Assembly: GCA_003153375.1 (NCBI GenBank)
Contig: PLYM01000133.1
Coordinates: 1 to 53,944 of the forward strand
Origin: Planctomycetaceae bacterium
GTDB taxonomy: Bacteria > Planctomycetota > Planctomycetia > Pirellulales > PALSA-1355
Length of the DNA: 53,944 bases
Direction of reading: 5' to 3'
The notes beneath the pieces were generated by a model, which was not told the DNA's origin, did no database searches, and saw nothing but the letters and a program-made list of their open reading frames with translations. The first letter of the stretch is position 1, and the number at the start of each line of letters is the position of its first letter. Position numbers and translations under genes: made by a program. This document shows, one piece after another, positions 14,267-48,555 of the stretch.

Positions 14267-14295
14267 GGGTGCCACTGCTGGCTTGTCCAGCAGTG
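14267..14295. repeat. REP-like palindromic repeat, single copy
   Basis: GGGTGCCACTGCTGG, loop CTTGT, then CCAGCAGTG: a 9-bp perfect hairpin. It is one of five loci of the same family in the window. It lies 45 bp after the permease stop, between convergent genes, so it could act as a transcript end. The bases that follow (AGAACTGCCGATAAACCGCC) resemble the interior of the paired copy at 15180-15266, suggesting that the distal half was lost. The rest of 14222-14491 shows no gene. Confidence 0.8.
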
Positions 14296-18674: not shown

Positions 18675-18741
18675 CTCGCGCGGTTCACGGCGATCGGTCA
18701 TTGCCGGCGCCGAATCGCGTGTTTTGAAATCCGAGGTTGCC

Positions 18742-20226
18742 ATGCATCCGCTCTTCGAAGATTGGGTTCGCTCCGAGACCCGCCGGCAGTTCTTTACGCG
18801 CGGCGCCAACGCACTGGGCACCGCAGCCTTGGCCTCGCTGTTGGGCGGCGGTCTGCCCCGCGCCAATGCCGCGACGGCCAATTCCCCGGGCGGAAGTCCC
18901 GACGGCCACCTGCCGATCGGTCCGCACTTCGCCCCCAAGGCCAAGCACGTGATCTATCTGCACATGGTCGGCGGTCCGCCGCAGATGGATTTGTTCGACT
19001 ACAAGCCGGGCATGCAGGAATGGTTCGACAAGGACCTGCCCGAATCGACGCGCATGGGCCAGCGGCTGACCACGATGACCTCGGGTCAGAAGCGGTTTCC
19101 GATCGCGCCCTCGAAGTTCAAGTTCGCCCAGCATGGTCAAAGCGGCATGTGGCTCAGCGAGCTGCTGCCGAACCTGGCCAAGTCGGTCGACGACATCTGC
19201 TTCATTCGCAGCATGCAAACCGACGCCATCAATCACGAGCCGGCCATCAGCTACATGCAAACCGGCAACCAGATCACCGGGCGGCCCTGCCTGGGCTCTT
19301 GGATTTCCTATGGCCTCGGTTCGCTCAACCACGATCTGCCCACCTTCGTGGTGCTGGTGGCCAAGCCGACCAATACCGAACAAGTGCAGGCCATCTCGGC
19401 CCGGCTGTGGTCGGCCGGCTATCTGCCCGGCGAACACGCCGGCGTTTCGTTCCGCGCCGGCGGCGATCCGATCCTCTACATCAACAACCCGCCCGGCGTG
19501 CCGCCCAACGTGCGCCGCGCCATGCTCGACGGCGTGCGCGAATTGAACGAGATGAACTATCGCAAGGTGGGCGATCCCGAGACCCACACCCGCATTCAGC
19601 AATACGAGCTGGCGTTTCGCATGCAGTCGAGCGTGCCGAATCTGACCGATCTCAGCGACGAGCCCGCGTCGACCTATGAGCTCTATGGCGAAACCGCCCG
19701 CAAGCCGGGCTCGTTCGGCCACACGGCGCTGATGGCCCGGCGGATGGTCGAGCGCGGCGTGCGGTTCGTGCAGGTCTATCTGAACAATTGGGACACGCAC
19801 AGCAACGTCGCCGGCCGTCTGCCCGATCAATGCCGCGACATCGACCAGCCTTGCCACGCCTTGATTCAAGACCTGAAAGCCCGCGGGCTGTTCGACGAGA
19901 CGCTGATCATCTGGGGCGGCGAGTTTGGCCGCACCATCTACTCGCAAGGCGGCCTGACCCACGACAACTACGGCCGCGATCATCATCCGCGCTGTTTCAC
20001 GATGTGGATGGCCGGCGGCGGCTCGAAGGGGGGCACTGTCTACGGTGAGACTTGCGACTTCTCCTACAACATCGTCAAGAACCCGGTACACGTCCGCGAT
20101 TTCCACGCCACGGCGCTCAAGCTGCTGGGCTTCGATCACGAGCGGCTCACCTATCATTTCCAAGGTCTCGACCAGCGGCTGACCACGGTCGAGCCGGCCC
20201 ACGTCGTGCCCGAGCTGATCGCTTAG
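18742..20226 (+). CDS. DUF1501 protein, Tat-exported
   Basis: The 494-residue product is the second DUF1501 protein of the window. A twin-arginine motif (TRRQFFTRG) near residues 13-21 is followed by a hydrophobic Ala/Leu/Gly stretch. The core shows YLHMVGGPPQMDLFDYKPGM, MARRMVERGVRFVQVY and GGEFGRTIYSQGG with GRDHHPRCFTMW. A TTG start at 18724 is possible, but GAGG at 18733-18736 sits five bases before the ATG at 18742, which also gives the better Tat leader. It is paired with the upstream PSCyt1/DUF1549/LamG/DUF1553 protein and is likely a partner in the same exported complex. The activity is unknown. Confidence 0.9.
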   Translation: MHPLFEDWVRSETRRQFFTRGANALGTAALASLLGGGLPRANAATANSPGGSPDGHLPIGPHFAPKAKHVIYLHMVGGPPQMDLFDYKPGMQEWFDKDLPESTRMGQRLTTMTSGQKRFPIAPSKFKFAQHGQSGMWLSELLPNLAKSVDDICFIRSMQTDAINHEPAISYMQTGNQITGRPCLGSWISYGLGSLNHDLPTFVVLVAKPTNTEQVQAISARLWSAGYLPGEHAGVSFRAGGDPILYINNPPGVPPNVRRAMLDGVRELNEMNYRKVGDPETHTRIQQYELAFRMQSSVPNLTDLSDEPASTYELYGETARKPGSFGHTALMARRMVERGVRFVQVYLNNWDTHSNVAGRLPDQCRDIDQPCHALIQDLKARGLFDETLIIWGGEFGRTIYSQGGLTHDNYGRDHHPRCFTMWMAGGGSKGGTVYGETCDFSYNIVKNPVHVRDFHATALKLLGFDHERLTYHFQGLDQRLTTVEPAHVVPELIA

Positions 20227-20372
20227 TGAAGAAGAATTGGTGAACGCTGGTCCGTGATTCGATCGCCATCGTGGCCTTGCAGCCGCACTTCGCCTCAATC
20301 TTGCAGTTTCTTACTAACCACCAACCACCCGTCACTAACCACTACTAGACTCTCCACCTGCCGTCAGCGATG

Positions 20373-20402
20373 ATAGTCACGTGTGACAAACGTGACTATA
20401 TT
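20373..20402 (+). promoter_or_regulatory. Palindromic operator-like site overlapping a putative -10 box
   Basis: ATAGTCACGT (20373-20382) and ACGTGACTAT (20390-20399) form a perfect 10-bp inverted repeat around GTGACAA. The spacer adds a third GTGAC half-site, giving a nested GTCAC-GT-GTGAC palindrome and a direct GTGAC-N4-GTGAC repeat. TATATT (20397-20402) overlaps the right arm and lies 27 bases before the GTG start at 20429. This is what a repressor or activator site over a promoter would look like; an RNA hairpin is the alternative. Confidence 0.5.
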
Positions 20403-20428
20403 GCCCGACGTTGCTGGGGAGTTGAGCT

Positions 20429-23400
20429 GTGAGGCGAGCTTTTTTTTCGGCCGTGCGGTTGGCTGTCGTGGTGCTCTCGGTGTCGGGCTTGCGCGCCGGC
20501 GCGGCGCCGGCCACGTTTGAGGACTTGGGCCAGGAATATGACGGCCAGGTGCGGCCGCTGATGGCCCGCGTCTGTCTCGATTGCCATTCCACCGAGAAGC
20601 AGGAAGGCGAGCTCGATCTGCAGCGGTTTGTCCGGATCGAGGACGTTCGCCAGGGAACCAAGGCCTGGCTCAAGGTTGTCGAGATGCTCGACAACGGCGA
20701 GATGCCCCCCAAGGACGCGCCGCAGTTGACGGCCGACGAAAAGAAGTTGCTGCGCGGCTGGATTGATCGCTATCTCGATGCCGAGGCCCACGCCACCGCC
20801 GGCGATCCTGGCCCCGTCGTCCTGCGGCGGCTGAGCAACGCACAATATACCTACACGGTGCAGGATCTCACGGCCGTCGAGTTGAACCCGCTGCGCGAGT
20901 TTCCGGCCGATGGCGCCGCCGGCGAGGGTTTTACCAACGCGGGCAACGCGCTGGTGATGTCGCCATCGCTGTTGAGCAAGTATTTCGCGGCCGGGAAGGA
21001 GATTGCCCAGCACGCCATGCTGCTGCCCGACGGCTTCCGCTTTTCGCCGTCGACCACCCCGCCCGATTGGACCAACGAGGTGCTGGCCAAGATTCGCCAG
21101 ACGTATCTGGAAAACAGCGACCCGCAGTTGGCCACCGACGTCAAGCTGCACGGCCTGGTCTGGCAGAGCAACGACGGCGGCAGGCTGCCGATCGAGCAAT
21201 ATATGGTCGCCACGCTCACCGAACGCGACGCAATTGCCGGCGGCAGCAAAACGCTCGCCGCCGTGGCTGCCGAGCGCCGCTTGAATCCCAAGTATCTGGC
21301 ATCATTGTGGAACCTGCTGCAAGGCAACGAGCCCTCGCAATTGCTCGATGCCATTCGCCAGCGCTGGCGCGCCGCGCAGCCGGCTGATGCCAAGGCGCTG
21401 GCCGATCAGATCGGCCTCTGGCAAAAGGCCCTTACGCGCTTTCAAAGCGTGGGCCACGAAAAGTCGTGGATGGTGCCGGTCAATCCCATCACCGCGCGGC
21501 AGGAAATTCGCCACAAGCTGACCGCGCCCACCGGCGGCAGCGAGATCACCATCTATCTCACCGCCAGTGAGGCCGGCGATGGCCCGGCGAACGACGTGGT
21601 CGTCTGGCAGCAGCCGCGGCTGGTCTCGCCGGGGCGCCCCGACTTGCTGCTGCGCGACGTGCGGGCGTTCACGCGCGAGATGACCGCGCGGCGCGAGCGG
21701 ATCTTCGCGGCCACGGCCCAGGCGTTGGCGATCGTCGACACGGTCAGCCGCACGGCCGACACCGTCGATGCCGCCGAGCTGGCCCGCCAGCACCAGATCG
21801 ATGCCGACGCCCTGTCGGCGTGGCTCGATTACTTCGGCGTGCAATCGTCGTCGGCGCTGCGACTCGACTATTTCACCGGGCGCATCGAACGCGTCTCGGG
21901 CTACGACTTCGTCAAGAGTTGGAGCAATCCCGAACTGCCCAGCCTGTCGGCCAATTCGTCCGACCAGCACGTCCGCATTCCCGGCAACATGAAACCGCAC
22001 GGCGTCGTCGTGCATCCGTCCCCCACCCTGGCCGCGGTCGTCGGCTGGCGCAGTCCCATCTCGGGGCCCGTGAAGATCGAGGGCAAGGTCACGCACGCCC
22101 ATCCCGAGTGCGGCAACGGCGTCACCTGGTCGCTCGAGCTGCGCCGCGGCAACACGCGGCAGGTGCTGGCTTCCGGAACCGCCGCCGGCAGTGGAGTCGG
22201 CACGATCGGCCCAACCGAACAGCAACTCGTGCGCTCTGGCGATCTGCTGTCGCTAGCCATTGGTCCGCGCGACGGCAACCACGGCTGCGACCTGACCGAT
22301 CTTGAGTTGACGATCACGAGCACCAGCGACGCCAGCCAGGCTTGGAGCCTGACGCGCGACGTGTCGCCCGACGTGCTGGCCGGCAATCCGCATGCCGACC
22401 GCCTCGGCAACCCGGGCGTGTGGCACTTCTATACCGAACCGGTCAAGCCCGACACGGGCCTGGCGATTCCCGGTGGCTCGGTGCTGGCCCGCTGGCAGGC
22501 CGCGGCCAGCGCCGACGAAAAGCACAACCTGGCTGAAGCCGTGCAAAAGCTGCTGATCGCCGGCCCGCCGGCCGAAGTGGCTCATCCCGATGCCGTGCTG
22601 TATCGTCAGTTGGCTTCGGTTGGCGGACCGCTGTTCGCTCGCGCCCGCACCGACGTGGCCAAGTCAACCGCCACGCCGGCCGGCGAGGGTGCCAGCGCCG
22701 ATCCCGCCAAGAACTGGGGACTCGACCGCGCATTATTCGGAAAACGTCCCGATGGCTCGCCCATCGACGCCGCCAGCCTCTGCGTGCAGGCCCCCTCGAC
22801 GATCGAGATTCGCCTGCCGGCCGACCTGGCCGCCGATTCCGAATTCGTCACCGCCGCCACACTCGATCCGCAAGCAGGCGCCGAGGGCAGTGTGCAGCCG
22901 CTCGTGCTGGTCGACAAACCGGCCGCGCTTTCCGAGCTGCGCGCCGACGCTCCGGTGCTCACCGCCGACGGCAGCGCGGCGCGCCAGCGCTTCGAAAAGG
23001 CCTGCAACGATTTTCGCGCCTGGTTTCCGGCCGCGCTGTGCTATAGCCGCATCGTGCCGGTCGACGAGGCGGTGACCCTCACGCTGTTTCATCGCGAGGA
23101 CGAGCCGTTCTGCCGTCTGATGCTCGACGATGCTCAGCGGGCCCAGCTCGATCGCCTCTGGGCCGAGCTGCACTTCGTCAGTCACGACGCCCTGACGCTG
23201 GTCGACGCCTTTGCCCAGCTGATGGAATACGCCACGCAAGATAGCGACCCCAAGCTGTTCGAGCCCTATCGCAAACCGATTCACGAGCGGGCCGCGGCGT
23301 TTCGCCAGACCATGCTCGATGCCGAGCCGCGCCACCTCGACACCCTGCTGGCCTTTGCCGCGCGGGCCTACCGGCGCCCGCTGGCCGACGGCGAAGCCAC

Positions 23401-24592
23401 CCAGTTGCGTCACCTGTACAAAAAGCTGCGCGACCAGGAGCTACCGCACGACGAGGCGCTTCGCTACACGCTCGCGCGGGTCTTCGTCTCGCCGGAGTTT
23501 TTATACCGTCTCGAAAAGGCCGCGCCGGGCACCACCCCCACCCCGGTTTCCGACACCGAACTGGCCAGCCGGCTCAGCTACTTCCTCTGGTCGTCCCTTC
23601 CCGACGCCCCGTTGAGCGAAGCCGCCGCGGCCGGGCGTCTGCACGATCCCGAAACGCTCAAGGCCGAAACGCACCGCATGCTGGCAGACCCGCGCATGCG
23701 TCGCCTGGCCACCGAGTTCGCCTGCCAGTGGTTGCACATTTACGACTTCAACGCGCTCGACGAAAAGAGCGAGCGGCACTTTCCCACATTCGTCGTCCTG
23801 CGTGGCGACATGTACGAGGAGCCGATTCGCTTTTTTGCCGATATGTTCCAACACGACGGCTCGGTGCTGGGCATCTACAACGCCGATCACACGTTCCTCA
23901 ATGAGGCGCTGGCCAAACACTATGAGATTCCCGGCGTGACCGGCCCCGAGTGGCGGCGCGTCGACGGCGTCGGCAAGTTCGGCCGCGGCGGCATCCTGGG
24001 CTTTGCCGCCACGCTGGCCAAGCAGTCGGGCGCCTCGCGAACCAGTCCCATTCTGCGCGGCAATTGGGTCTCGGAAGTCCTGCTCGGCGAAAAATTGCCC
24101 CGGCCGCCCAAGAACGTGCCCGTGCTGCCCGAGGACGAAGCCGATACCGCCGGGCTGACCGTGCGGCAGCTTGTCGAAAAACACACCAGCGACGTGCGCT
24201 GCTCGGGTTGCCACGCCCGCTTCGATCCACTCGGCTTCGCGCTCGAGGGCTATGACGCCATCGGCCGGCGGCGCGAAAAGGACTTAGGCGATCGCCCCAT
24301 CGATGCCCGGGCCCGTTTTGCCAGCGGCAGCGAGTTCCAGGGCCTGCCGGGCCTGCGAGATTATCTGCTCACGGGTCATCGCGATGCCGTGCTGCGACAA
24401 TTCAGCCGCAAGCTCCTGGGCTATGCCCTGGGCCGCGGCATCCAGCTGTCCGACGAGCCCCTGCTGGCCGAGATGCAGCGGCAGCTTGAGAAGCACGATT
24501 TTCGCGTTTCCTCCGTGATCGAAACCATTGTCACCAGCCCGCAGTTCCGCGAAATTCGCGGCCGCGACACGCAGGTGGCCGACGCCCCGTGA
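20429..24592 (+). CDS. PSD-type planctomycete cytochrome protein (DUF1587/1595/1592/1588/1585)
   Basis: The 1387-residue exported protein has a signal peptide (about 1-25), a cytochrome c motif C49-L-D-C52-H53 and a DUF1587-like block (RRLSNAQYTYTVQDLTAVE). The C-terminal half carries DUF1595 (ARAYRRPLADGEATQLRHLY), DUF1592 (ASRLSYFLWSSLPDAPL onward), DUF1588 with a second CxxCH (CSGCH near 1256) and DUF1585 (GYALGRGIQLSDEPLLAEM). Typical members have about 800-900 residues; the extra length is an insert between the N-terminal and C-terminal blocks (about 200-900) containing a beta-rich, probably ligand-binding part. The GTG at 20429 is chosen: GGGGAG at 20415-20420 lies eight bases upstream and the frame begins there. 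A DUF1552 gene follows after 112 bp, the standard partner for this family. Biochemistry unknown. Confidence 0.9.
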   Translation: MRRAFFSAVRLAVVVLSVSGLRAGAAPATFEDLGQEYDGQVRPLMARVCLDCHSTEKQEGELDLQRFVRIEDVRQGTKAWLKVVEMLDNGEMPPKDAPQLTADEKKLLRGWIDRYLDAEAHATAGDPGPVVLRRLSNAQYTYTVQDLTAVELNPLREFPADGAAGEGFTNAGNALVMSPSLLSKYFAAGKEIAQHAMLLPDGFRFSPSTTPPDWTNEVLAKIRQTYLENSDPQLATDVKLHGLVWQSNDGGRLPIEQYMVATLTERDAIAGGSKTLAAVAAERRLNPKYLASLWNLLQGNEPSQLLDAIRQRWRAAQPADAKALADQIGLWQKALTRFQSVGHEKSWMVPVNPITARQEIRHKLTAPTGGSEITIYLTASEAGDGPANDVVVWQQPRLVSPGRPDLLLRDVRAFTREMTARRERIFAATAQALAIVDTVSRTADTVDAAELARQHQIDADALSAWLDYFGVQSSSALRLDYFTGRIERVSGYDFVKSWSNPELPSLSANSSDQHVRIPGNMKPHGVVVHPSPTLAAVVGWRSPISGPVKIEGKVTHAHPECGNGVTWSLELRRGNTRQVLASGTAAGSGVGTIGPTEQQLVRSGDLLSLAIGPRDGNHGCDLTDLELTITSTSDASQAWSLTRDVSPDVLAGNPHADRLGNPGVWHFYTEPVKPDTGLAIPGGSVLARWQAAASADEKHNLAEAVQKLLIAGPPAEVAHPDAVLYRQLASVGGPLFARARTDVAKSTATPAGEGASADPAKNWGLDRALFGKRPDGSPIDAASLCVQAPSTIEIRLPADLAADSEFVTAATLDPQAGAEGSVQPLVLVDKPAALSELRADAPVLTADGSAARQRFEKACNDFRAWFPAALCYSRIVPVDEAVTLTLFHREDEPFCRLMLDDAQRAQLDRLWAELHFVSHDALTLVDAFAQLMEYATQDSDPKLFEPYRKPIHERAAAFRQTMLDAEPRHLDTLLAFAARAYRRPLADGEATQLRHLYKKLRDQELPHDEALRYTLARVFVSPEFLYRLEKAAPGTTPTPVSDTELASRLSYFLWSSLPDAPLSEAAAAGRLHDPETLKAETHRMLADPRMRRLATEFACQWLHIYDFNALDEKSERHFPTFVVLRGDMYEEPIRFFADMFQHDGSVLGIYNADHTFLNEALAKHYEIPGVTGPEWRRVDGVGKFGRGGILGFAATLAKQSGASRTSPILRGNWVSEVLLGEKLPRPPKNVPVLPEDEADTAGLTVRQLVEKHTSDVRCSGCHARFDPLGFALEGYDAIGRRREKDLGDRPIDARARFASGSEFQGLPGLRDYLLTGHRDAVLRQFSRKLLGYALGRGIQLSDEPLLAEMQRQLEKHDFRVSSVIETIVTSPQFREIRGRDTQVADAP

Positions 24593-24704
24593 TTTTGCCC
24601 GGTCCCAGTCCCTTGGCCGCCGGCCCCGTTTTCGTGTTACACTGATCGCATGGTACTTTGCTAACCGACCCCGCCCGCAACCCCAGCCTACCGCGAGCAA
24701 CCGC

Positions 24705-26009
24705 ATGAGCACGCACCAGCTTTCTCGTCGCACCGTCCTGCGTGGCATCGGCGTCACGATGGCCCTGCCCTGGCTCGAGTCGATCCGGGTCTGGGGCGAC
24801 GAGGCCCAGAAGGGCGGCGCGGGCAGCGAAGCTCCGGTGCGTTTTGCGGCTTTGTTCTCGGGCAATGGCTTCCACAGCAAGGAGTGGTGGGCCAAGGGCG
24901 CCGGCGCCCAGATGGAGCTCGGCAAAGTGCTCGAGCCGCTGACCCCGCTGCGCGAAAAGCTGCTGTTCGTTCGCGGGCTGTACAACGAAGAAGCCCTCAA
25001 GGGCAACATCCACAGCTCGCAAACCGGCAACCTGTTGTCCGGCGCGCCGCTGGCCTCGGGCGGCGACATTCGCTCGGGCACCAGCATCGATCAGGTCATC
25101 GCCCAGCAGCAGGGACAATCGACCAAGGTGCCCAGCCTGGTGCTGGGGTGCGAGAAGTCGAATCCGTCGGTCCACAAGAATTACTCGATGCTCTACAGCT
25201 CGCACATCTCGTGGAGCTCGCCGACCACGCCCACGCCGTTGGAGCTGTATCCGGCGTTGGCGTTCGACCGGCTGTTCAAGGATGAAGTGCAGAAAGGCGA
25301 TCAGAGCGTGTTGGATGCCGTGCTGGCCGACGCCACCGACATCCGCCGTCAGATCAGCACCTCCGACCAGCGCAAGCTCGACGAATATCTCGACTCGGTG
25401 CGCGAAGTCGAACAGCGCATCGAACAGGCCGGCAAGAAAGGAAACCTGGAAGGCTGGCGGCCCACGCTCGCCGCGCCCAACATTCCGCGCCCGGCAGACG
25501 GCATTCCGCAAGACATCGGCGAGCACATGCGGCTGATGTGCGACATCCTGGTGCTCGGTTTCCAGACCGACACCACACGCGTCTGCACGCTCAAGCTGAA
25601 CAACGACCACAGCTCGCTCCGGTTCCCCAACCTGGGCGTCGACTACATGATCCACCACTTGCTGTCGCACTCCGACACGGCCGACTGGCTCAAGGTCAAT
25701 CAGTTCTTCCTGCACCACCTGGGCTATCTGGCCGGCAAGCTCGACGCCATTCAAGAAGGCAGCCGCACGGCGCTCGACAACTCGGTGCTGCTCTATTGCT
25801 CGAGCATGATGACCGGCGGTCACGACGCCACGCAACTGCCCGTCGTCGTGCTGGGCCGCGGCGGCGGTAAGCTCGAAACGGGCCGCATTCTCGACTATCA
25901 AGGCCAGCCCAACCGCAAGATGTGCAGCCTGTTCCTCTCGCTGATGGACAAGACCGGCGTACACCTCAAGCAATTCGGCGACTCGCAAGAACGCCTGGCC
26001 GAAGTCTGA
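24705..26009 (+). CDS. DUF1552 protein, Tat-exported
   Basis: The 434-residue product belongs to DUF1552, a family distantly related to DUF1501 and normally encoded after a DUF1592-type cytochrome protein, as here. SRRTVLRGIGVTMALPWLE (residues 7-25) is a twin-arginine leader. Later landmarks are FSGNGFHSKEWW, LLFVRGLYNEEALKGNIHS, the GCEKSNPSVHKNYSMLYSSH region and SVREVEQRIEQAGKK. The frame extends upstream to 24528 over the end of the cytochrome gene, but the ATG at 24705 opens the Tat signal. No strong ribosome site is visible. Its enzymatic role has not been established; export and pairing point to a joint function with the upstream protein. Confidence 0.9.
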   Translation: MSTHQLSRRTVLRGIGVTMALPWLESIRVWGDEAQKGGAGSEAPVRFAALFSGNGFHSKEWWAKGAGAQMELGKVLEPLTPLREKLLFVRGLYNEEALKGNIHSSQTGNLLSGAPLASGGDIRSGTSIDQVIAQQQGQSTKVPSLVLGCEKSNPSVHKNYSMLYSSHISWSSPTTPTPLELYPALAFDRLFKDEVQKGDQSVLDAVLADATDIRRQISTSDQRKLDEYLDSVREVEQRIEQAGKKGNLEGWRPTLAAPNIPRPADGIPQDIGEHMRLMCDILVLGFQTDTTRVCTLKLNNDHSSLRFPNLGVDYMIHHLLSHSDTADWLKVNQFFLHHLGYLAGKLDAIQEGSRTALDNSVLLYCSSMMTGGHDATQLPVVVLGRGGGKLETGRILDYQGQPNRKMCSLFLSLMDKTGVHLKQFGDSQERLAEV

Positions 26010-27407: not shown

Positions 27408-27442
27408 GGGTGCCACTGCTGGCTTGTCCAGCAGTGGCACCC
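27408..27442. terminator. Perfect REP-like hairpin between convergent genes
   Basis: GGGTGCCACTGCTGG (27408-27422), loop CTTGT, and CCAGCAGTGGCACCC (27428-27442) form a flawless 15-bp stem. It lies 90 bases after one glycosyltransferase stop and 26 before the other, on opposite strands, so it could end transcription from both sides. No U-tract follows on either strand, so a classical rho-independent mechanism is not shown. It is also the best-preserved member of the repeat family. Confidence 0.5.
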
Positions 27443-30288: not shown

Positions 30289-33200
30289 CTAGGACGAGAC
30301 GAACAAGGGGTCGACCCAGTAGTTGCTTCCCTGATAACTGCTGGTCGGGAAGCCGCCCTTGCCATAGAGATAGACGCCGCCGTTGACCGGCACGTGCAGC
30401 CCGCCACTCGTGTAGGTCGTGCTGAAGTATGACCGGCTGACCGAGTAGTGGCCCGAGGTGGTGTGATACGACGCGATGTACGTGACGCCGGCCGTGATCG
30501 CCACGGGCGTGCTGAAAATCACCTGCTGCCAGCCGCTGGCCGTTTCATTGACGAACGTTCCGGTGGCCAGAAGTTGCCCGCTGGCCGTCCACAGGCTGGC
30601 CGTGTGCGTGCCGGTGTTGGCCGCGCTCTTATAGAACTTGATGCCCGTGATCGTGCCGCTGGTGTCGGAGGTGAACTGCGTGCCGAGCTCGACCCCCTGC
30701 GGGTCGCCGCTGTCGACGATGCCGGGCGCCGCCGCCGTGGTCCACAGGCTCACCGGCGTCTTCGCCGCGGCCGCGGTCGTAAACGATTGCGTGACGTCGG
30801 CCGCCAAGGCGTTGCCGGCCACGTCCTTGACCCCGCTGGCGCCGCTCTTCACGACAACTGTAAAAGCAGTCGAGTTCGCCAATGCCGCGGTCGGTGCAAT
30901 GGTCGCCGTGTTCGTGGCCGCGTTGTAGGAGACGGTCGCCGCCACGGTCACATTGCTGGCGTTTCGCAGAAACACCGTGCTCGTGGTGACCGAGGCCGCG
31001 CTGACCGGTTCGCTGAAGGTTACCGTCGCCGCCGTGGTGGTCGCGACGTTCGTGGCCCCATTGGCGGGCGTGATCGCCGTCACGGTCGGCGGCGTCACGT
31101 CGGCCGCCGCGGTGGAGAACGATCGCGTGACGTCGGTCACCAGCGCGTTGCCGGCCACGTCCTTCACGCCGCTCGTGCCGCTCTTGACCACCACCGTGTA
31201 GGTTGTCGAGTTGGCGAGCGCCGCGGTCGGCGTGATGGTTGCCGTGTTCGTGGCTGCATTGTAAGAGACGGTCGCTGCCACGGTCACATTGCTGGCGTTT
31301 TGCAGAAACACCGTGCTCGCGGTGATCGAGGCCGCGTTCATGGCCTCGCTGAAGGTCACCGTGGCCGCAGTCGTGGTCGCGACATTCGTGGCTCCGCTGG
31401 CGGGTGTGACCGCTGTCACGGTCGGCGGCGTGGTGTCGACCGGGGCGCTGCTGTTCAACACCACGTCAACCCAGTAGTTGCTCGCCTGATAGCTGCTCGA
31501 GGGAAATCCGCCGGTGCCGTAGCGATAGACGCCGCCATTGGCCATGGCGTGCAACGGGCCGTTGGTGAAGGTCGAGGTGAAGTACGAACGGCTCACCGAG
31601 TAGTGGCCCGCGGTCGAATGATAGGACGCGACATACATCGTGCCGGCCGTGATCGCCACGGGCGTGGCGAAGTTGACCTGCTGCCAGCCGCTGGCGGTTT
31701 CGTTGGTAAAGGTGGCCGTCGCCAACAACTGACCGCCGGCCGTCCACAAGCTGCCCGTGTGGGTGCCCGTGTTGCCGGCCGCTTTGTAGAACCGCAGGCC
31801 AGTGATCGTGCCGTTGACGTCCGAGGTGAATTGCGTGCCCACGTCCAGCGCTTGGGCGTCGCCGCTGTCGACGATGGCCGGAGCCGTCGAAGCCGACCAG
31901 AGACTCGACGCTACTGGCTGCGAGACCGCGACCGCCGTGGTGAACGATGCCGTGGCATCCGCCGCCAGCGCGTTGCCGGCCACGTCCTTCACGCCGCTGG
32001 TCCCACTCTTGACCACGATCGTATACGCGGTCGAGTTGGCCAGCGCCGCGGTGGGCGTGATCGTGACGGTGTTGGTCGCCGCGTTATAAGTCACCGTTGC
32101 CGGCACGACCACGTTGCTCGCGGTTTGCAGGAAGACCGTGCTCGATGTCACCGTGGCCGCATTCAGCGCTTCGCTGAACGTGACCGTCGCCGTGCCCGTG
32201 ATGGCCACGTTGGTGCTGCCGGCCGTCGGGCTGAAGGCCGTCACGGTCGGCGGGGTTGTATCGGCCGCCGCGGCGGTCGTGAACGAGGCCGAAAAGTCGG
32301 CCGTCAGTGCGTTGCCAGCCAGGTCTTTGACGCCGCTTGTCCCGCTCTTAACGACGACCTTATACGTCGCCGAATTTGCCAGGGCAGCCGTCGGCGTAAT
32401 CGTCGCCGTGTTCGTGGCTGCGTTATAGGTCACGTTAGCCGGCACGGCCACATTGCTCGCATTTTGCAGCATCACGGTGCTGGTTGTAATCGACGCGGCG
32501 CTCATGGCCTCGCTGAACGTCACGGTGGCCGCCGCGGCAATCGCCACGTTGGTCGCTCCACCCGAGGGCGTGGTCGTGGTCACCGTGGGTGGCGTCGTGT
32601 CCACGGCAGCGGCGGTGGTGAACGACGCGGTGTTGGTCGTTGCCAGGAAATTCTCGCTGACATCCGCCACGCCGCTGGTGCCTCCCTGCACGATCACGGT
32701 ATAAAGCGTCGAGTTGGCCAGGTTGCTGGTGGGCGTCAGCGTCACGGTCGTCGTACCGCTGGTGTAGGAAACCGTGGCCGGAATGACCGCGTTGGTGGCG
32801 CCATTGCGCAACTGGACCGTGGTCGAAGTGACCGTCGCGGGATCGAGAGGCTCGCTGAAAGCCACGCTCACCGCGGCGTTGATCGCAACGGACGTGCCCA
32901 GCGGGGCAATGTTGGTGATCGTCGGCGGGGTGATATCGGTCGTCACGGGCAGCGACAGCACGACGTCGACCCAGTAGTTGCTCGACTGGTAGCTGGTTGT
33001 GGGGAATCCGCCATTGCCATAGAGATAGACGCCGCCATCGGCCAAAATGTGCAATGGACCGCTGCTCACCTGCGAAGTGAAGTAGGACCGGCTGACCGAG
33101 TAATGGCCGGAAGTCGTGTGATACGACGCCACATACGTGGCGCCGGCCGTCACGGCCACCGGCGTCGCGAAATTCACCTGTTGCCAACCGCTCGTGCTTT

Positions 33201-35349
33201 CGCTTGTGAACGTGGCCGTGGCCAGCAGTTGGCCACTCGAGCTCCACAGGCTGCCCGTGTGCGTGCCGGTATTGGCCGCGCTCTTGTAGAACCGCAAGCC
33301 GGTGATGAAGCCGCTGCTGTCGGAGGTGAATTTGACGCCCAGTTCCACCCCTTGTGCGTCGCCGCTGTCGACCGTGGCCGGCGCTCCGCCGCCGTTCCAC
33401 ACACTGAAGGTCGTGCCGGCGCTTCCCCCGGGGGCCGGAGGATTGATCGTGACCCCGGCCGAAGGTTGTTCGAGATTGCCGCTGTCATCGACCGCGCGGG
33501 TCATGATCGTCGTGGTGCCACTGGTCAGCGGCGTCCAGCTATATGTCCAACTCGTTCGTCCGCTGGCGGGATGCCAAGTGGCTCCGCCGTCGACCGATAC
33601 TTCGACGCCCGCCACCACGCCGCCTCCGCCGTCCACGGCGGTGCCCTGAATCGTGATCGGCACGCCAGCCTGCAGGGTCGCCCCGGAAACGGGCGAAGTG
33701 ATCGTCGACGTCGGGGCCGTGTGATCGGTCGACATCGTGGCAGGCACCAGTCCGGCCATCAACGTCGTCGGCTGCACGCCCATGTCGGCAAACAAGTTGA
33801 TCATCGCCTGCTGCATCCGCGAATCGACCTTCGTGGCCCGGCCGTCATGGTCATCGTCCAAGCCCCATGACCACTGCTGGCTGCCGGCGCTGAACACCAG
33901 CGCGCCGCTCGCGGCCCGATACAGCGTCAAGCTGTGCGTGGCCGTGCCCGCGGCATAGGTGCTGCCATAGTCTTGCAGCAACGACGTCGTGTTGAACGTG
34001 GTGCTCGACAAATCCATCAAACCGGCCGGACGAAAGCCGTTATCGACGTCCGAGTCCGACTCTTCGCCCAGCACATAGTCCGAGAGCGTGGCCGATTGAC
34101 TTGGCGACAACGTGGCGATGCTCGTGTTTCGCCAGAATCGCAAGCTTGCGTCGCTGCCCGGCACGGTGATGGCTCGGCTGGTGCCGTCGGAATTGACCGT
34201 GAACATCGTGCCCATCACGGCGTTCTCCGGTCGGCCGCCGTCCGCCGGCGGGCTGAACCGCGGATCGCGCCACGTGCCGGTCCAGATGTTGGGATTCACC
34301 GGGTCGATGATCGCGTTGGCGTGCGTCTCCTTATACGTGACCATCGTCCGATCCGGCGTGGTCGAATCGAATGTGCTCGTGGTCCAATAGGTCTTCCAAA
34401 ACATGTCGTTGCCGCCGAAGAATCCCAGGCTGACTCCGGCATCGCGGGCCGTCTCCACCGCGCTGCGCTCGGCGGCCGACCAGTATTCGTCATGCCCCGA
34501 CGACATGAACATCTTGTGATTCAGCAACAGCGAGCCGCTCTCGTCCAGATCCTTCGTGGCGATGTAGCTCACGTCATAGCCGTTCTCCTCGAGAAAACGG
34601 ACCATCGGGAAATCGGTGCCGTAATAAAAACTAACGAGGTTATAGGAACGGAGGTTGTAGTCGAAAGGCCGGTTGTAACTGACGCCGTACGCACGGCCGT
34701 CGGTCGAGCCTTCGACCCCGTCGCCTTCATAGACGCTGTTGCCGCCCCAGTCGTTGTACGCTTCCCACGTGGCGTCGGCCGTCTTGAACACGATGTTCGA
34801 ATGCGATTCGTCAGCGCGAACGATGAAGATGATCTGACTCTCGCCGGCAACGCCGTCTTGACGGATCAGATCGGCGACATAGACACCCGACGTGGCGTCG
34901 GATGGTACGGCCCATTGCGCCGACACGTTCCAATTGCCGGCGTCCACAATGCCCGTTGTTGGGTCTTCCACGGGGGCCGGCTGATTGTGGGCCAGGCTGG
35001 CGTTCGGATTGATGGTCGTGATAAAACGCGCGCCATCTCCGCCGTAGTAACCCGTGCGATAGATGTCGATGCGATAGTTATTCGAGTCGGTGTTGATCTT
35101 GAACTGCACGGTCTGGCCGTGGTTGACGCTCATCTGGGTGGCGTATCCCTCGATGTTCGTCGAGCCCGTCCCCACGTCCCACACCGATTGCGGCGTGCCG
35201 GGCAGCGCATTTTCCTGGGCGATCGTGAGCACGGCCAGCATCCGCCGGTCTTCCAGCGATTCGAGACGGGTCGAATGAAATAACGGGCGGAGGGCGCGCG
35301 CAGGGCGAGCGGTACGCCCGGGCTTGGACGACTTGCGTTTGCGAAACAT
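30289..35349 (-). CDS. Giant secreted protein: N,N-dimethylformamidase-beta-like domain, DUF4082 and Ig-like repeats
   Basis: The 1686-residue product begins with a very basic leader (FRKRKSSKPGRTARPARA) and the planctomycete surface-protein motif LESLEDRRMLA (about 29-39). Residues about 60-530 match the large C-terminal domain of N,N-dimethylformamidase beta subunits: YRTGYYGGDGARF, PSDATSGVYVADLIR, SYNRPF, HKMFMSSGHDEYWS, FFGGNDMFWKTYW, FSAGSQQWSWGLD. After a bridging Ig-like domain come three DUF4082 domains (about 645-800, 1148-1298, 1530-1686; each VDSGD...FTSD... and ending NYWVD) separated by three and then two Ig-like Big_5 repeats (DTTPPTVT...). No anchor, dockerin or PEP-CTERM end is visible. 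No ribosome site precedes the ATG at 35349, which is chosen because the leader starts there. Whether the catalytic domain is active, and on what substrate, is unknown. Confidence 0.85.
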   Translation of the reverse strand: MFRKRKSSKPGRTARPARALRPLFHSTRLESLEDRRMLAVLTIAQENALPGTPQSVWDVGTGSTNIEGYATQMSVNHGQTVQFKINTDSNNYRIDIYRTGYYGGDGARFITTINPNASLAHNQPAPVEDPTTGIVDAGNWNVSAQWAVPSDATSGVYVADLIRQDGVAGESQIIFIVRADESHSNIVFKTADATWEAYNDWGGNSVYEGDGVEGSTDGRAYGVSYNRPFDYNLRSYNLVSFYYGTDFPMVRFLEENGYDVSYIATKDLDESGSLLLNHKMFMSSGHDEYWSAAERSAVETARDAGVSLGFFGGNDMFWKTYWTTSTFDSTTPDRTMVTYKETHANAIIDPVNPNIWTGTWRDPRFSPPADGGRPENAVMGTMFTVNSDGTSRAITVPGSDASLRFWRNTSIATLSPSQSATLSDYVLGEESDSDVDNGFRPAGLMDLSSTTFNTTSLLQDYGSTYAAGTATHSLTLYRAASGALVFSAGSQQWSWGLDDDHDGRATKVDSRMQQAMINLFADMGVQPTTLMAGLVPATMSTDHTAPTSTITSPVSGATLQAGVPITIQGTAVDGGGGVVAGVEVSVDGGATWHPASGRTSWTYSWTPLTSGTTTIMTRAVDDSGNLEQPSAGVTINPPAPGGSAGTTFSVWNGGGAPATVDSGDAQGVELGVKFTSDSSGFITGLRFYKSAANTGTHTGSLWSSSGQLLATATFTSESTSGWQQVNFATPVAVTAGATYVASYHTTSGHYSVSRSYFTSQVSSGPLHILADGGVYLYGNGGFPTTSYQSSNYWVDVVLSLPVTTDITPPTITNIAPLGTSVAINAAVSVAFSEPLDPATVTSTTVQLRNGATNAVIPATVSYTSGTTTVTLTPTSNLANSTLYTVIVQGGTSGVADVSENFLATTNTASFTTAAAVDTTPPTVTTTTPSGGATNVAIAAAATVTFSEAMSAASITTSTVMLQNASNVAVPANVTYNAATNTATITPTAALANSATYKVVVKSGTSGVKDLAGNALTADFSASFTTAAAADTTPPTVTAFSPTAGSTNVAITGTATVTFSEALNAATVTSSTVFLQTASNVVVPATVTYNAATNTVTITPTAALANSTAYTIVVKSGTSGVKDVAGNALAADATASFTTAVAVSQPVASSLWSASTAPAIVDSGDAQALDVGTQFTSDVNGTITGLRFYKAAGNTGTHTGSLWTAGGQLLATATFTNETASGWQQVNFATPVAITAGTMYVASYHSTAGHYSVSRSYFTSTFTNGPLHAMANGGVYRYGTGGFPSSSYQASNYWVDVVLNSSAPVDTTPPTVTAVTPASGATNVATTTAATVTFSEAMNAASITASTVFLQNASNVTVAATVSYNAATNTATITPTAALANSTTYTVVVKSGTSGVKDVAGNALVTDVTRSFSTAAADVTPPTVTAITPANGATNVATTTAATVTFSEPVSAASVTTSTVFLRNASNVTVAATVSYNAATNTATIAPTAALANSTAFTVVVKSGASGVKDVAGNALAADVTQSFTTAAAAKTPVSLWTTAAAPGIVDSGDPQGVELGTQFTSDTSGTITGIKFYKSAANTGTHTASLWTASGQLLATGTFVNETASGWQQVIFSTPVAITAGVTYIASYHTTSGHYSVSRSYFSTTYTSGGLHVPVNGGVYLYGKGGFPTSSYQGSNYWVDPLFVSS

Positions 35350-35733
35350 GTGGGCTCGGGGGAGGGAGTGGATAGGGTGCGGGGAAGCGCGTCCTAACCG
35401 GTTGCGATGGGAGGCGGCTTCCAGCCAGAACGGCTGGACAACCACCGGCGAGGCCTCTCGGCGATGCGAGGGGAATCGCGCCGCCCTTGGAGCTGTCCAT
35501 GTCGAAGGGGTAGAATTTCATGTTGGCTAGACCCCAACGCGAAGACAATATGATTGGCGAAACTAAATGCCCTGCGAGGATTTAGATGGCCCTCGGAATG
35601 GCCTAATCCGCACATCCGGCAGGTCCGCCGACCGAGCAATCGGCACAAAGCGCAAGGGCTGAAAGCGGGCGCGCTCGAGGGCGCGAAGAGGGACTAAGAA
35701 GAGGTGCCTGGCCGGGGGCGAGCGATCCGCCGT
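35350..35733. other. Intergenic region upstream of the giant gene
   Basis: This 384-bp gap lies between the wecD-like gene and the giant gene, both leftward. It should contain the giant gene's promoter, perhaps in the AT-richer part near 35560-35620. No clear box pair, hairpin or protein was found. Confidence 0.5.
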
Positions 35734-41372: not shown

Positions 41373-43214
41373 ATGTTCGCCCTGCAAGAGCTGCCAGCTT
41401 CCCGTCGCTGGACGTCGGCCTGCCAGGCCGTCGAGCGATTCGCCACGCGCCAGCCCCTGCGATTTGCCTTGCTGGCAGTGCTGGCCCTGCTGGCAATCGC
41501 CTTTGTCGTGTTGCGGCCGAGCTACGACACGAACGACGACGTCTTCATGACTATGATCGCCGCCGGCCAGGGCTTCTCCCCTGCCCCCGACGAGCATCTC
41601 GTCTTCACGAACATCCTTGTTGGCCAGGCCCTCAAATGGCTCTACATCCACGCCCCGCAAATTCCCTGGTACGGCTGCTACCTGCTGGCCATTCACTATC
41701 TCGCGCAAGTGGCTCTGTTGTATTGCGCCCTGACCATCGACCTGCCGTCGCCATCTCGCGCCGACCGTCGCGGCGAATCGAGTGGCGCTCTGAAACGTTT
41801 CGCGCTTTACCTGCTCAGCTTTGCCTTGGTCGAGTTGGTGCTGCTGAACAACATGCAGTTCACGACCACGGCATTTCTGGCGGCCGAGAGCGGGATCTTC
41901 CTGCTGCTGCTCGCCGCGCGGCGCTGCGCGAGCCAGCCCCGCTCGGCCGTGTTCGGTCCGCTCGTGGCGGCCGTGTTGCTCATGGTGGTCGCGGCGCTGG
42001 TGCGGTTCGAAAGCCTGTTGATGGCACTATTGATCGCTGCGCCGCTGGTGGTTCTCGTTCCGTGGCCCGCGATTCGCAAAGCTCTCGTCCCGCTGGGATT
42101 GGCCACGACGACGGCGGCGCTGCTCGTCGGACTGGCCGTGGCCTATGACCAGGCGGCCTATGCGGCGGATCCCCAGTGGCGCGACTTTATTTCCTACAAC
42201 CGGCTGCGCGTGAAGTTCAACGACTATGGCTGGACTTCCTACACGCCGCGAACGGCCGACGTGTTCGCCGCTGTCGGCTGGAGCGAAAACGATCACGCGA
42301 TGATCGCCCACTGGTTCTTTGACGAACCGGAGCTCTATAGCGAAGCCCGCCTGCGAGCGGTGCTCGAGGCCCACCCTTGGAAGACCGAGCGGCTGTCGGC
42401 CGCCTATCTGTGGCAGAACTTTCGCAGTCCGCTTCGCGATCGGTCCGTTTGGGCCGTACTGGCCGTGCTCCCCTTCTTCTTCTATCGTGTCCAACCTGGC
42501 CGCCTGGGCCGCATCGCCATCCTCGGTTCTGCCGTCGTGGGCCTGCTGCTGATCGGCGTGCTCACCTGGAACAACAAGGTGCCGCCGGCCCGCGTCTACT
42601 TTCCCCTGCTGTCGTTCCCGCTGTCGGCGACCTTGTTGTTCGCGGCCAATTGGGCTCAGGCAAAGATCCTGCCCGTCTGGACTGGCGTGACCGCACGTCC
42701 GCGATGGGCCCGCGCGGCCTTGGTGCTGCTCGTGGTCGGCGTCGTGATGGGCGTATATCACCAGGGCCGGCATAGCCTGCTGGTGCGCCGCGATCGCCGC
42801 GCGCTCGACGCCTTTCTGGCCGAGCTCGAGCCGTCGGGTCGCGAACTTTACGTCTGCTGGGAAGCGGCCATGCCATTCGAGCTGATCTCACCGCTCGATA
42901 ATTTGAGCGCCTGGGCCCGCATGCCGCTGGTCAACCTGGTGTGGACCCAGCGAGGTCCCTGGCAGGAAGAAACCAAGCGGCGCTTCGGCGTCTCGAATCT
43001 GGCCGCAGCCCTCTGCCAGCGCGACGACCTGGTGCTGATCGCCACGCCCGAGCATCGCGAGCTGTTTGCCCGCTTCGCGAAAGAACATTGCCAGGCCGAC
43101 GTCGAATTCGTGCCCACCGCCACGGCCGGCAAGAAACTCGTCGCCGGCCGCTTCCGGCCGCTCGCTTCCGACGCCACGACCGTGGGCCAACAGCCGTCGC
43201 TCCCACCACGTTGA
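41373..43214 (+). CDS. Large polytopic membrane protein (possible GT-C glycosyltransferase)
   Basis: The 613-residue product has roughly eleven hydrophobic segments and a C-terminal soluble domain of about 130 residues (RRDRRALDAFLAELEPSGRELY to the end). Directly after the first membrane segment comes PSYDTNDDVFMTMI, an acidic motif placed like the catalytic loop of GT-C transferases; later loops carry DFISYNRLRVKFNDYGW. No exact family is recognised. GAGGAG about eight bases upstream fixes the ATG at 41373; an in-frame start at 41313 has none. It is divergent from rmlA and convergent with the DUF11 gene (16-bp gap). A role in surface glycan transfer is inference. Confidence 0.8.
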   Translation: MFALQELPASRRWTSACQAVERFATRQPLRFALLAVLALLAIAFVVLRPSYDTNDDVFMTMIAAGQGFSPAPDEHLVFTNILVGQALKWLYIHAPQIPWYGCYLLAIHYLAQVALLYCALTIDLPSPSRADRRGESSGALKRFALYLLSFALVELVLLNNMQFTTTAFLAAESGIFLLLLAARRCASQPRSAVFGPLVAAVLLMVVAALVRFESLLMALLIAAPLVVLVPWPAIRKALVPLGLATTTAALLVGLAVAYDQAAYAADPQWRDFISYNRLRVKFNDYGWTSYTPRTADVFAAVGWSENDHAMIAHWFFDEPELYSEARLRAVLEAHPWKTERLSAAYLWQNFRSPLRDRSVWAVLAVLPFFFYRVQPGRLGRIAILGSAVVGLLLIGVLTWNNKVPPARVYFPLLSFPLSATLLFAANWAQAKILPVWTGVTARPRWARAALVLLVVGVVMGVYHQGRHSLLVRRDRRALDAFLAELEPSGRELYVCWEAAMPFELISPLDNLSAWARMPLVNLVWTQRGPWQEETKRRFGVSNLAAALCQRDDLVLIATPEHRELFARFAKEHCQADVEFVPTATAGKKLVAGRFRPLASDATTVGQQPSLPPR

Positions 43215-43230: not shown

Positions 43231-46200
43231 TTAGTAGCGGCCGAGGAACTGGGCCTTCGACAGCGGCGGCAGCGGATCGACCGTGTCGGTGTCCGTCGCC
43301 GTGTTGTTGTTGAGGTTCGTGTCCGTGAGTCCCTCGGGCACGCTGGCCGTGACGGTATTGGTCAATGTGCCCGCCTTGGCCGAGATCGGCATCGTGCCGG
43401 TCACCGTATAGGTGATCGTGCTGCCCACGGGCATCGTAACGTTCGTGTCGTCGATCGATCCGGTGCCGCTGGCAGTGAAGCCGGTTGCTCCGCCGGTGGC
43501 CGTGGCCGTAAAGGTCACGCCGGTCAAAATCGCCGGCACCGTATCCACGATGCTCGCTCCGGTCGCCACGCTGGGGCCGGCGTTCGTGATCACGATCGTA
43601 TAGGTGGTCGAGTTGCCGGCCTTGATCGTCGTGATGCCATCGGTCTTGGTAACGACCAGATCGACTTGCGGTGTCATCGTGTCGGTGTCGGTCGCGGTGT
43701 TGTTGGCCGGCGTCGGGTCGGTCGTGCCCTCCGGAGCGGTGACCGTGGCCGTGTTGACCAACGTTCCCGTGGCCGCCGCGTTGACCGTGCCGGTCACAAC
43801 GTAGGTGATCGTGCTATTGACCGGCATGTTGACGGCCGTGTCGTTGATGTTGCCGCTGCCGCTGGCGGTGAAGCCGGTCGCTCCGCCGGTGGCCGTGGCC
43901 GTGTAGGTCACGCCCGTGTAGGTCGACGGGAAAGTGTCGGCCACGGTGGCGCCGGTGACCACGCTCGGACCGGAGTTCGTGACGACGATCGTATAGCTAT
44001 CCGTCGTGCCGGGCACAACCAGCGTCTTGTTGTCGGTCTTGGTGATGCTCAGATCGGCCTGCGGCGTCAACGTGTCGGTGTCGGTCGCGGTATTGTTGGC
44101 CGGCGTCGGATCGGTCACACCTTGCGGGGTGGTGACCGTGGCCGTGTTAACCAGCGAGCCCGTGGCGGCCGCGCTGACCGTGCCGGTGACCGTGTAGGTG
44201 ACCGTGCTGCCGACCGGCATGTTCACGGCGGTGTCGTTGATGTTGCCGCTGCCACTGGCCGTGAAGCCCGTGGCTCCGCCGGTCGCGACCGCCGTGTAGG
44301 TCACGCCGGTGAAGGTGGCCGGGAAGGTATCGGCTACGGTGGCCCCGGTCACGGCGCTCGGGCCGGTGTTCGTGACCACGATCGTATAGGTGTCGCTCGT
44401 GCCCGGCACCACCGTGGTCTTGTTGTCGGTCTTGGTGATGCTCAGATCGGCTTGCGGCGTGAGCACGTCGGTATCGGTGGCCGAGTTGTTGGCCGGCGTC
44501 GGATCGGTCGTGCCTTGCGGCGCGGCGACCGTGGCCGTGTTGACCAGCGTGCCGGTTGCCGACGGGCTCACGGTTCCGGTCACGGTATAGGTGATCGTGC
44601 TGCCGACCGGCATATTGACGGCCGTGTCGTTGATGTTGCCGCTGCCGCTGGCAGTGAAGCCGGTCGCTCCGCCCGAGGCCACGGCCGTGTAGGTCACGCC
44701 GGTGAACGTCGCCGGGAAAGTATCGGCCACGGTCGCGCCGGTCACGGCGCTCGGACCCGAGTTGGCGACCACGATCGTATAGGTGTCGCTCGTGCCCGGC
44801 ACCACCGTGGTCTTGTTGTCGGTCTTGGTGATGCTCAGATCGGCCTGCGGCGTCAACGTGTCGGTGTCGGTCGCGGTGTTGTTGGCCGGCGTCGGATCGG
44901 TCGTGCCTTGCGGCGCGGCGACCGTGGCCGTGTTGACCAGCGTGCCGGTTGCCGACGGGCTGACCGTGCCGGTCACGGTATAGGTGATCGTGCTGCCGAC
45001 CGGCATGTTCACGGTATCGTTGATCGTGCCGCTGCCGCTGGCCGTGAAGCCCGTGGCTCCGCCGCTTGGCACTGCCGTGTAGGTCACGCCCGTCAAGATC
45101 ACGGGGAACGTATCTCCGACCGTGGCTCCGGTCACGGCGCTGGGGCCCAGGTTGGAGACCACGATCGTATAGGTGTCGCTCGTGCCGGGCACGACGCTCG
45201 TCTTGTTGTCGGTCTTGGTGATGGTCAGATCGGCTTGCGGAGTGAGCGTGTCGGTGTCGGTCGCGGTGTTATTGGCCGGCGTCGGATCGGTCGTGCCTTG
45301 CGGCGCGGTGACGGTCGCGGTGTTGACCAGCGTGCCGGTGGCCGACGGGCTGACCGTGCCGGTCACGGTATAGGTGATCGTGCTGCCGACCGGCATGTTC
45401 ACGGCGGTGTCGTTGATGTTGCCGCTGCCGCTGGCCGTGAAGCCCGTCGCTCCGCCGGTCGCGGTGGCGGTATAACTCACGCCGGTGAACGCGAGCGGGA
45501 AGCTATCGCCCACGGCCGCGCCGGTCACCACGCTGGGCCCCGAGTTGGTGACTACGATCGTATAGGTGTCGATCGTGCCCGGCACCACGGTCGTCTTGCC
45601 GTCGGTCTTGGTGATGCTCAGATCGGCCTGCGGTGTAAGGATGTCGGTGTCGGTCGCGGTGTTGTTGGCCGGCGTCGGGTCGGTCAGACTCACGGGCACG
45701 GCCACGGTGGCGGTGTTGACCAACGTGCCGGTGGCCGAGGCACTTACCGCTCCGGTCACGGTGTAGGTGATCGTGCTGTTCAACGGCATGTTCACCGTGT
45801 CGTTGATGTTGCCGCTGCCGCTGGCGGTAAAGCCCGTGGCTCCGCCGGTCGCGACCGCCGTGTAGGTGGCGCCCGTGAAGATGGCCGGGAAGGCGTCGAC
45901 GACGCTGCCGCCCACGATGTCGGTGGGGCCGTTGTTCGTGACGACGATCGTATACGTATCGTTGGTGCCCGGCACGACGGTAGTCTTGCCGTCTGTCTTG
46001 GTCACGGCCATGTCGGCCAGGTTGGTGATCGTGTCGGTGTCGGTGGCTGAGTTGTTGTTCGGGTTCGAGTCAGTCGTGCCTTCCGGCGCGACGACGGTCA
46101 CCGTGTTCGAGATCGTGCCAGTGGCTTGAGCGCTGATTGTGCCGGTGACGATATAGGTGATCGTGCTACCGACCGGCATGTTGACGCTGTCGGTGATGTC

Positions 46201-48312: not shown

Positions 48313-48555
48313 GGTCGCTCTCTGCGGGGAGTGCTGCGGAATGCAAGGACGGGACAGGTGGCACGCGCCGTGCGTTGGCGAGCTCTGGGGCGTGCTCGTC
48401 ACCTCGCCGTTGCCTAGGCCGGGGGTGCCTGGCAGCGCGCGACGCGGGTTCCTTGGTCCTTATCGTCAACCGGCGGCGCTACAATCAGTGTAGGTCGCAC
48501 AATCGGTAGCATAGGCGCTCCAGATCGCCTCGGCGAGTGGCGATCGGGGGGTAGA

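Follow-up and report, generated by a model that had tools for sequence, protein, structure and literature searches.

Operators of dimeric HTH repressors may overlap σ70 promoters, and a dyad lying over a promoter in front of a gene pair is naturally compared with them. The genes concerned here belong to the planctomycete cytochrome families. In Rhodopirellula baltica, the PSD1 and PSC2 domains of these cytochrome genes each occur 41 times, an ECF sigma factor has been proposed for one PSD1/PSC2 gene, and two GntR genes were up in heat shock on microarrays (PMC2754498). The sections of that paper covered here do not tie GntR to PSD1/PSC2 genes. Likewise, the titles and abstract openings searched, with subscription journals outside the coverage, contained no planctomycete GntR/FadR operator associated with these families. 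The literature therefore leaves the odds of the readings discussed below unchanged. Control of individual cytochrome pairs is poorly covered in the searchable literature, and a working operator, if real, would be a handle on one such pair.

The window, the whole stretch of DNA analysed, comprises bases 1–53,944 of one contig in a 6.7-Mb assembly with an estimated completeness of 96%. Its Pfam families include PSCyt1, DUF1549/1553, DUF1501, DUF1587–1585 and DUF1552, a set indicative of a planctomycete. Direct reading and a zero-mismatch pattern match revealed a perfect 10-7-10 palindrome, ATAGTCACGT-GTGACAA-ACGTGACTAT (20373..20399), a putative operator with fully complementary arms at 20373–20382 and 20390–20399 and the spacer GTGACAA at 20383–20389. 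A third GTGAC lies inside the spacer (20383..20387, + strand), the right arm overlaps a TATATT (20397–20402), and 29 bases (20400–20428) separate the end of the palindrome from the GTG start at 20429. An earlier note had described the 10-bp inverted repeat, the third half-site, the TATATT overlap and the spacing to the start codon, all of which were confirmed. At 40% G+C, the arms are poorer in G+C than 33 of the 35 repeats that reach an arm length of 10 in 833,944 sampled bases of the same genome.

The gene that starts at the GTG (20429..24592, + strand) encodes a protein of 1387 aa with Pfam matches to PSCyt1, DUF1587, DUF1595, DUF1592, DUF1588 and DUF1585. The second gene of the pair encodes a DUF1552 (HXXSHH) protein (24528..26009, + strand); its ORF start was called mechanically and the true start is probably later. 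On the other side, a cytochrome pair precedes the palindrome; its DUF1501 gene, assigned by Pfam (18724..20226, + strand), ends 146 bases before the palindrome. The earlier note's claim that the site is unmatched at the window's other cytochrome/DUF1501 pairs holds, the sole other perfect inverted repeat with arms of at least 10 (loop 3–12) being a REP-like element at 27408.

The palindrome spans a σ70-like promoter candidate, TAGTCA-17-TATATT (20374..20402, + strand), called by consensus match only (9 of 12) and with a weak −35-like TAGTCA (4 of 6). A scan of 20000–20800 (801 bp) gave two σ70-like matches, compared to a mean of 0.1 in shuffles. The second match is on the − strand of the same palindrome and is taken as a by-product of its symmetry. 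A Shine-Dalgarno-like GGGGAG, inferred from the sequence, is positioned before the GTG start (20416..20421, + strand). An operator over a promoter remains its best single reading, given that the palindrome covers a promoter-like −35/−10 pair and that its position suits a short leader containing a Shine-Dalgarno-like element. We suggest, with a probability of roughly 0.45, that the palindrome is a lineage-specific operator over the promoter of the PSCyt/DUF1587–DUF1552 pair and the site for a dimeric repressor. A putative dimeric DNA-binding protein would occupy 20373–20399, covering the −35-like TAGTCA through the −10-like TATATT, and would bar RNA polymerase from the promoter of the pair until a signal releases the protein. 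Transcription is predicted to start at about 20408–20411, giving a leader of about 20 nt that would hold the GGGGAG. The operator reading is favored by an exact palindrome that spans a promoter-like pair of a kind rare in shuffles, by the excess over shuffles of long perfect arms in upstream regions described below, and by the full complementarity and low G+C of the arms. In addition, related operons carry an operator-like palindrome over a −10-like sequence (the −10 assigned by eye), which makes control of such pairs by promoter-overlapping operators plausible in the order.

Conservation was assessed by protein searches with the window PSCyt sequence, which covered 296 genomes from the order as well as the genome collection. 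Of 92 loci entered (L036–L126, L147), 91 matched and 88 went into the comparison. A usable start was lacking in L088, L091 and L110, L126 had no match at E 1e-20, and L071, L094 and L087 appear to duplicate L040, L056 and L047. GTCAC-N3..15-GTGAC within 150 bp upstream was confined to the window locus and occurred in none of the 87 others, of which at least three are duplicates, and GTCAC-N0..15-GTGAC likewise picked out only the window locus among the 88. The earlier note had held that absence of the palindrome from orthologous upstream regions would count against its proposal, and this comparison ran against it. The closest full-length relative shares about 63% protein identity, partial matches or fragments share 65–71%, and G001, the only further genome from the genus, yielded one match to the window PSCyt protein (E 2.9e-78). 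Since the nearest full-length relative is only about 63% identical and no sister species is among the genomes, the site may be young.

Further copies were sought in the genome itself, as the earlier note had proposed, and with up to 3 mismatches the palindrome matched only itself in the whole genome. Allowing 4–6 mismatches and gaps of 4–10 gave 38 matches in 834 kb versus 30 in one shuffle. In 57 relatives, up to 3 mismatches returned the palindrome's own copy and one 3-mismatch match (in G020). GTCAC-N0..14-GTGAC occurs at 96 places in the genome versus 31 for the reversed control, an excess over that control, and none of the places listed, which exclude the window contig, resembled the 10-7-10 site. 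There is no clear sign of a regulon, and a single-target regulator would need no further sites. The proposed specific regulation by a dimeric factor is partly supported: the palindrome over a promoter-like pair speaks for it, and the 0 of 87 other loci, the single genomic site and the weak −35 speak against it. Separately, GTCAC-N13-GTGAC with near-constant letters, perhaps a conserved coding motif, is found at C15:11793, C31:4645, C57:79457 and C121:28215.

Candidate regulators were also considered. A Pfam scan of 36 window ORFs revealed no regulator; likely genes outside that set include those at 30289–35445, 42027–42773 and 43231–48402 on the − strand. Four GntR proteins were found in the genome, all on contigs other than that of the window. 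Both results speak against the operator reading. The 210 bp upstream of one of them, a GntR/FCD gene on contig C165 considered as the factor, contain no inverted repeat (arms of at least 6, loop 0–12). On the same contig (L168), the GntR/FCD regulator adjoins a gene resembling DUF1501 by eye.

The palindrome could instead have arisen by chance in an intergenic stretch and have no binding protein, which we consider less likely than an operator, though the strongest of the alternatives. Its frequency was estimated from a sample of 833,944 bases, made up of the window and 39 segments of 20 kb each from its genome (loops 3–12, three shuffle rounds). Arms of exactly 10 were observed 14 times against a shuffled mean of 8.7, and arms of at least 10 were observed 35 times against 14.7. 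Arm length by itself hardly exceeds chance, as a chance origin would have it, and the single genomic copy and the lack of conservation in the loci examined point the same way. A second count was restricted to the 150 bp before 381 of 566 longest-ORF gene calls, each having 50 bp or more of intergenic sequence (loop 0–12). Five rows were obtained and reduced to four distinct cases, one row being the window palindrome viewed from the opposite ORF call; 20 shuffle rounds averaged 0.8 and never exceeded 3. Within the sampled portion of the genome, upstream arms of at least 10 are therefore about 5 times as frequent as in shuffles, and about 20% of the cases (0.8 of 4) are expected at random. Palindromes of this kind at gene starts are uncommon, with about four in five unexplained by base composition, yet far from extreme. 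However, the site falls on the sole promoter-like pair called in 20000–20800, and the third GTGAC would be an added coincidence. Both features were picked after the fact; together they reduce the odds of chance further.

Less probable still is a role at the RNA level, either as a leader hairpin masking the Shine-Dalgarno sequence or as a 3′ hairpin that would curb readthrough out of the DUF1501 pair before it. Folding of the 121-nt stretch is more favorable than that of its shuffles (z −3.67, 1 of 200 as good), and the predicted fold pairs a flanking CUCUCC with the GGGGAG region. When the palindrome was fixed and only the flanks were shuffled, however, the z-score moved to between −1.7 and −2.3, with 6, 14 and 17 of 300 shuffles as good for three choices of ends. 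The predicted folding thus lends Shine-Dalgarno masking weak support. An intrinsic terminator scan (hairpin followed by U-tract) called no terminator-like site, no Rfam match reached gathering scores in the window, and the promoter call, if right, would leave the hairpin outside its transcript.

The related operons offer a comparison for the operator reading. A GntR-HTH plus FCD (FadR-type) gene lies upstream and co-oriented in 15 of 88 PSCyt loci (L038, L044, L045, L049, L052, L054, L057, L073, L081, L083, L084, L092, L108, L111 and L147), and the regulator in G002 matches PF00392 and PF07729 (GntR/FCD, FadR type). Upstream of the FadR-type gene is a palindrome, ATTRTCNGATAATCTA or ATTGTATGACAATATA, that overlaps the −10 by eye. 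Some of these promoters show, again by eye, TTGACA or TTGACG 16–17 bp before TAATCT. Of the 15 FadR-linked loci, 12 have the pattern TTRTNNGAYAA no more than 1500 bp upstream of the PSCyt start; the count for the other 73 loci is 5, of which two represent one and the same locus. A FadR-like protein was found in 42 of 296 genomes, and 30 of the 44 listed places were fetched (L172–L201), at least 8 of which overlap the 15 linked loci. The 250 bp upstream of the FadR-like gene contain TTRTNNGAYAA in 24 of these 30; three more have it with one mismatch, two have none and one has its start beyond the contig end. Mononucleotide shuffles contained the pattern in 11 of 6000 cases (0.18%). The match to the window PSCyt protein begins within 175 bp downstream of the FadR-like gene in 11 of the 30, and two other neighbors are PSCyt1/DUF1549 proteins by Pfam. 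By-eye reading of the remaining flanks showed, among others, permeases and a protein resembling a gluconolactonase, some of them encoded on the opposite strand. The FadR-linked motif looks like the operator of an autoregulated FadR-type repressor, to which the repressor would bind.

We built a FastTree of 57 proteins, leaving out those with coverage below 1250 residues and the three duplicates (L071, L094, L087). The window gene falls within a supported set of four, one member of which is FadR-linked. The FadR label requires 9 changes on the tree versus a shuffled mean of 11.8 (17 of 500 shuffles as low), indicating that FadR linkage was gained or lost repeatedly. In the genome of the window itself, a search for the FadR-like protein came back empty at E 1e-5, which alone shows nothing. 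This genome, 96% complete as assembled, also has no ATTRTCNGATAATCTA, and the strict pattern is present in just 4 of 57 genomes, so this absence alone says little.

One scenario that would join the two kinds of site is regulator turnover, which we regard as improbable. A FadR-type repressor and its operator would have been lost from the PSCyt/DUF1552 operon in the window lineage, and a new regulator would have taken the same promoter position. The palindrome would then act as a three-half-site element, the extra GTGAC permitting either of two overlapping dimer registers. Far less credible is that the palindrome represents the FadR-linked operator in degenerate form or as a relic. It has a comparable place over a −10-like sequence, and 20381–20389 reads GTGTGACAA, near the GTATGACAA of some relatives by eye. 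However, a matrix from 26 operators scored at best −8.0 on the palindrome plus TATATT, compared to 13.6 to 31.2 for the operators themselves, and its best score in the intergenic stretch, −1.7, was reached by 106 of 500 shuffles. The relic reading was rejected on the matrix score, and the absence from this genome of a FadR-like match or of ATTRTCNGATAATCTA also speaks against it.

Least probable of all is the end of a small mobile element or dispersed repeat: the genome does hold palindromic repeats such as CACTGCTGG-N5-CCAGCAGTG, but the reading is disfavored by copy number, as the window palindrome is single at up to 3 mismatches, unlike a multi-copy REP or MITE, and in a DNA search with 20227–20640 the other matches in the genome (12 of 62 candidates scored) cover only query positions 84–119, a CACTAACCAC tract off the palindrome. 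A tract of this CACTAACCAC type, at 20310–20349 in the window, recurs in closely matching form at two further sites of the genome, and several related genomes also contain close matches. The REP-like palindrome CACTGCTGG-N5-CCAGCAGTG has 42 copies in the genome. A search of 39 genomes detected it in 22, at up to 201 copies; the reversed control gave none. Its window copies are at 14273, 26070, 26159, 27408, 38784 and 38831, the longest form being GGGTGCCACTGCTGGCTTGTCCAGCAGTGGCACCC; several lie shortly 3′ of gene ends, and two pairs are oppositely oriented. A paper on palindromic repeats mentions Planctomycetes, and its main text does not contain CAGCAGTG (PMC3733652).

At present the window palindrome is of little consequence, being a lone candidate without conservation. 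The FadR-linked motif of the relatives is the stronger handle on control of such pairs, and together with the widespread REP-like palindrome it may merit more attention than the window palindrome.

Compared with known systems, the window site resembles REP-like elements in being a short intergenic palindrome, but those elements are repeated and this site is single. Relative to operators of dimeric HTH repressors, the putative site has no second copy, no conservation in the loci examined and no assignable regulator, and shares with them a dyad, here extending over the candidate −35 to −10, near the start codon of a gene pair. The FadR-linked motif ATTRTCNGATAATCTA and the window palindrome both lie over a −10-like sequence, in operons that partly have the same gene type. 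They differ in sequence and in architecture: the FadR-linked motif has a 5-1-5 arrangement and a linked regulator gene, whereas the window palindrome is 10-7-10.
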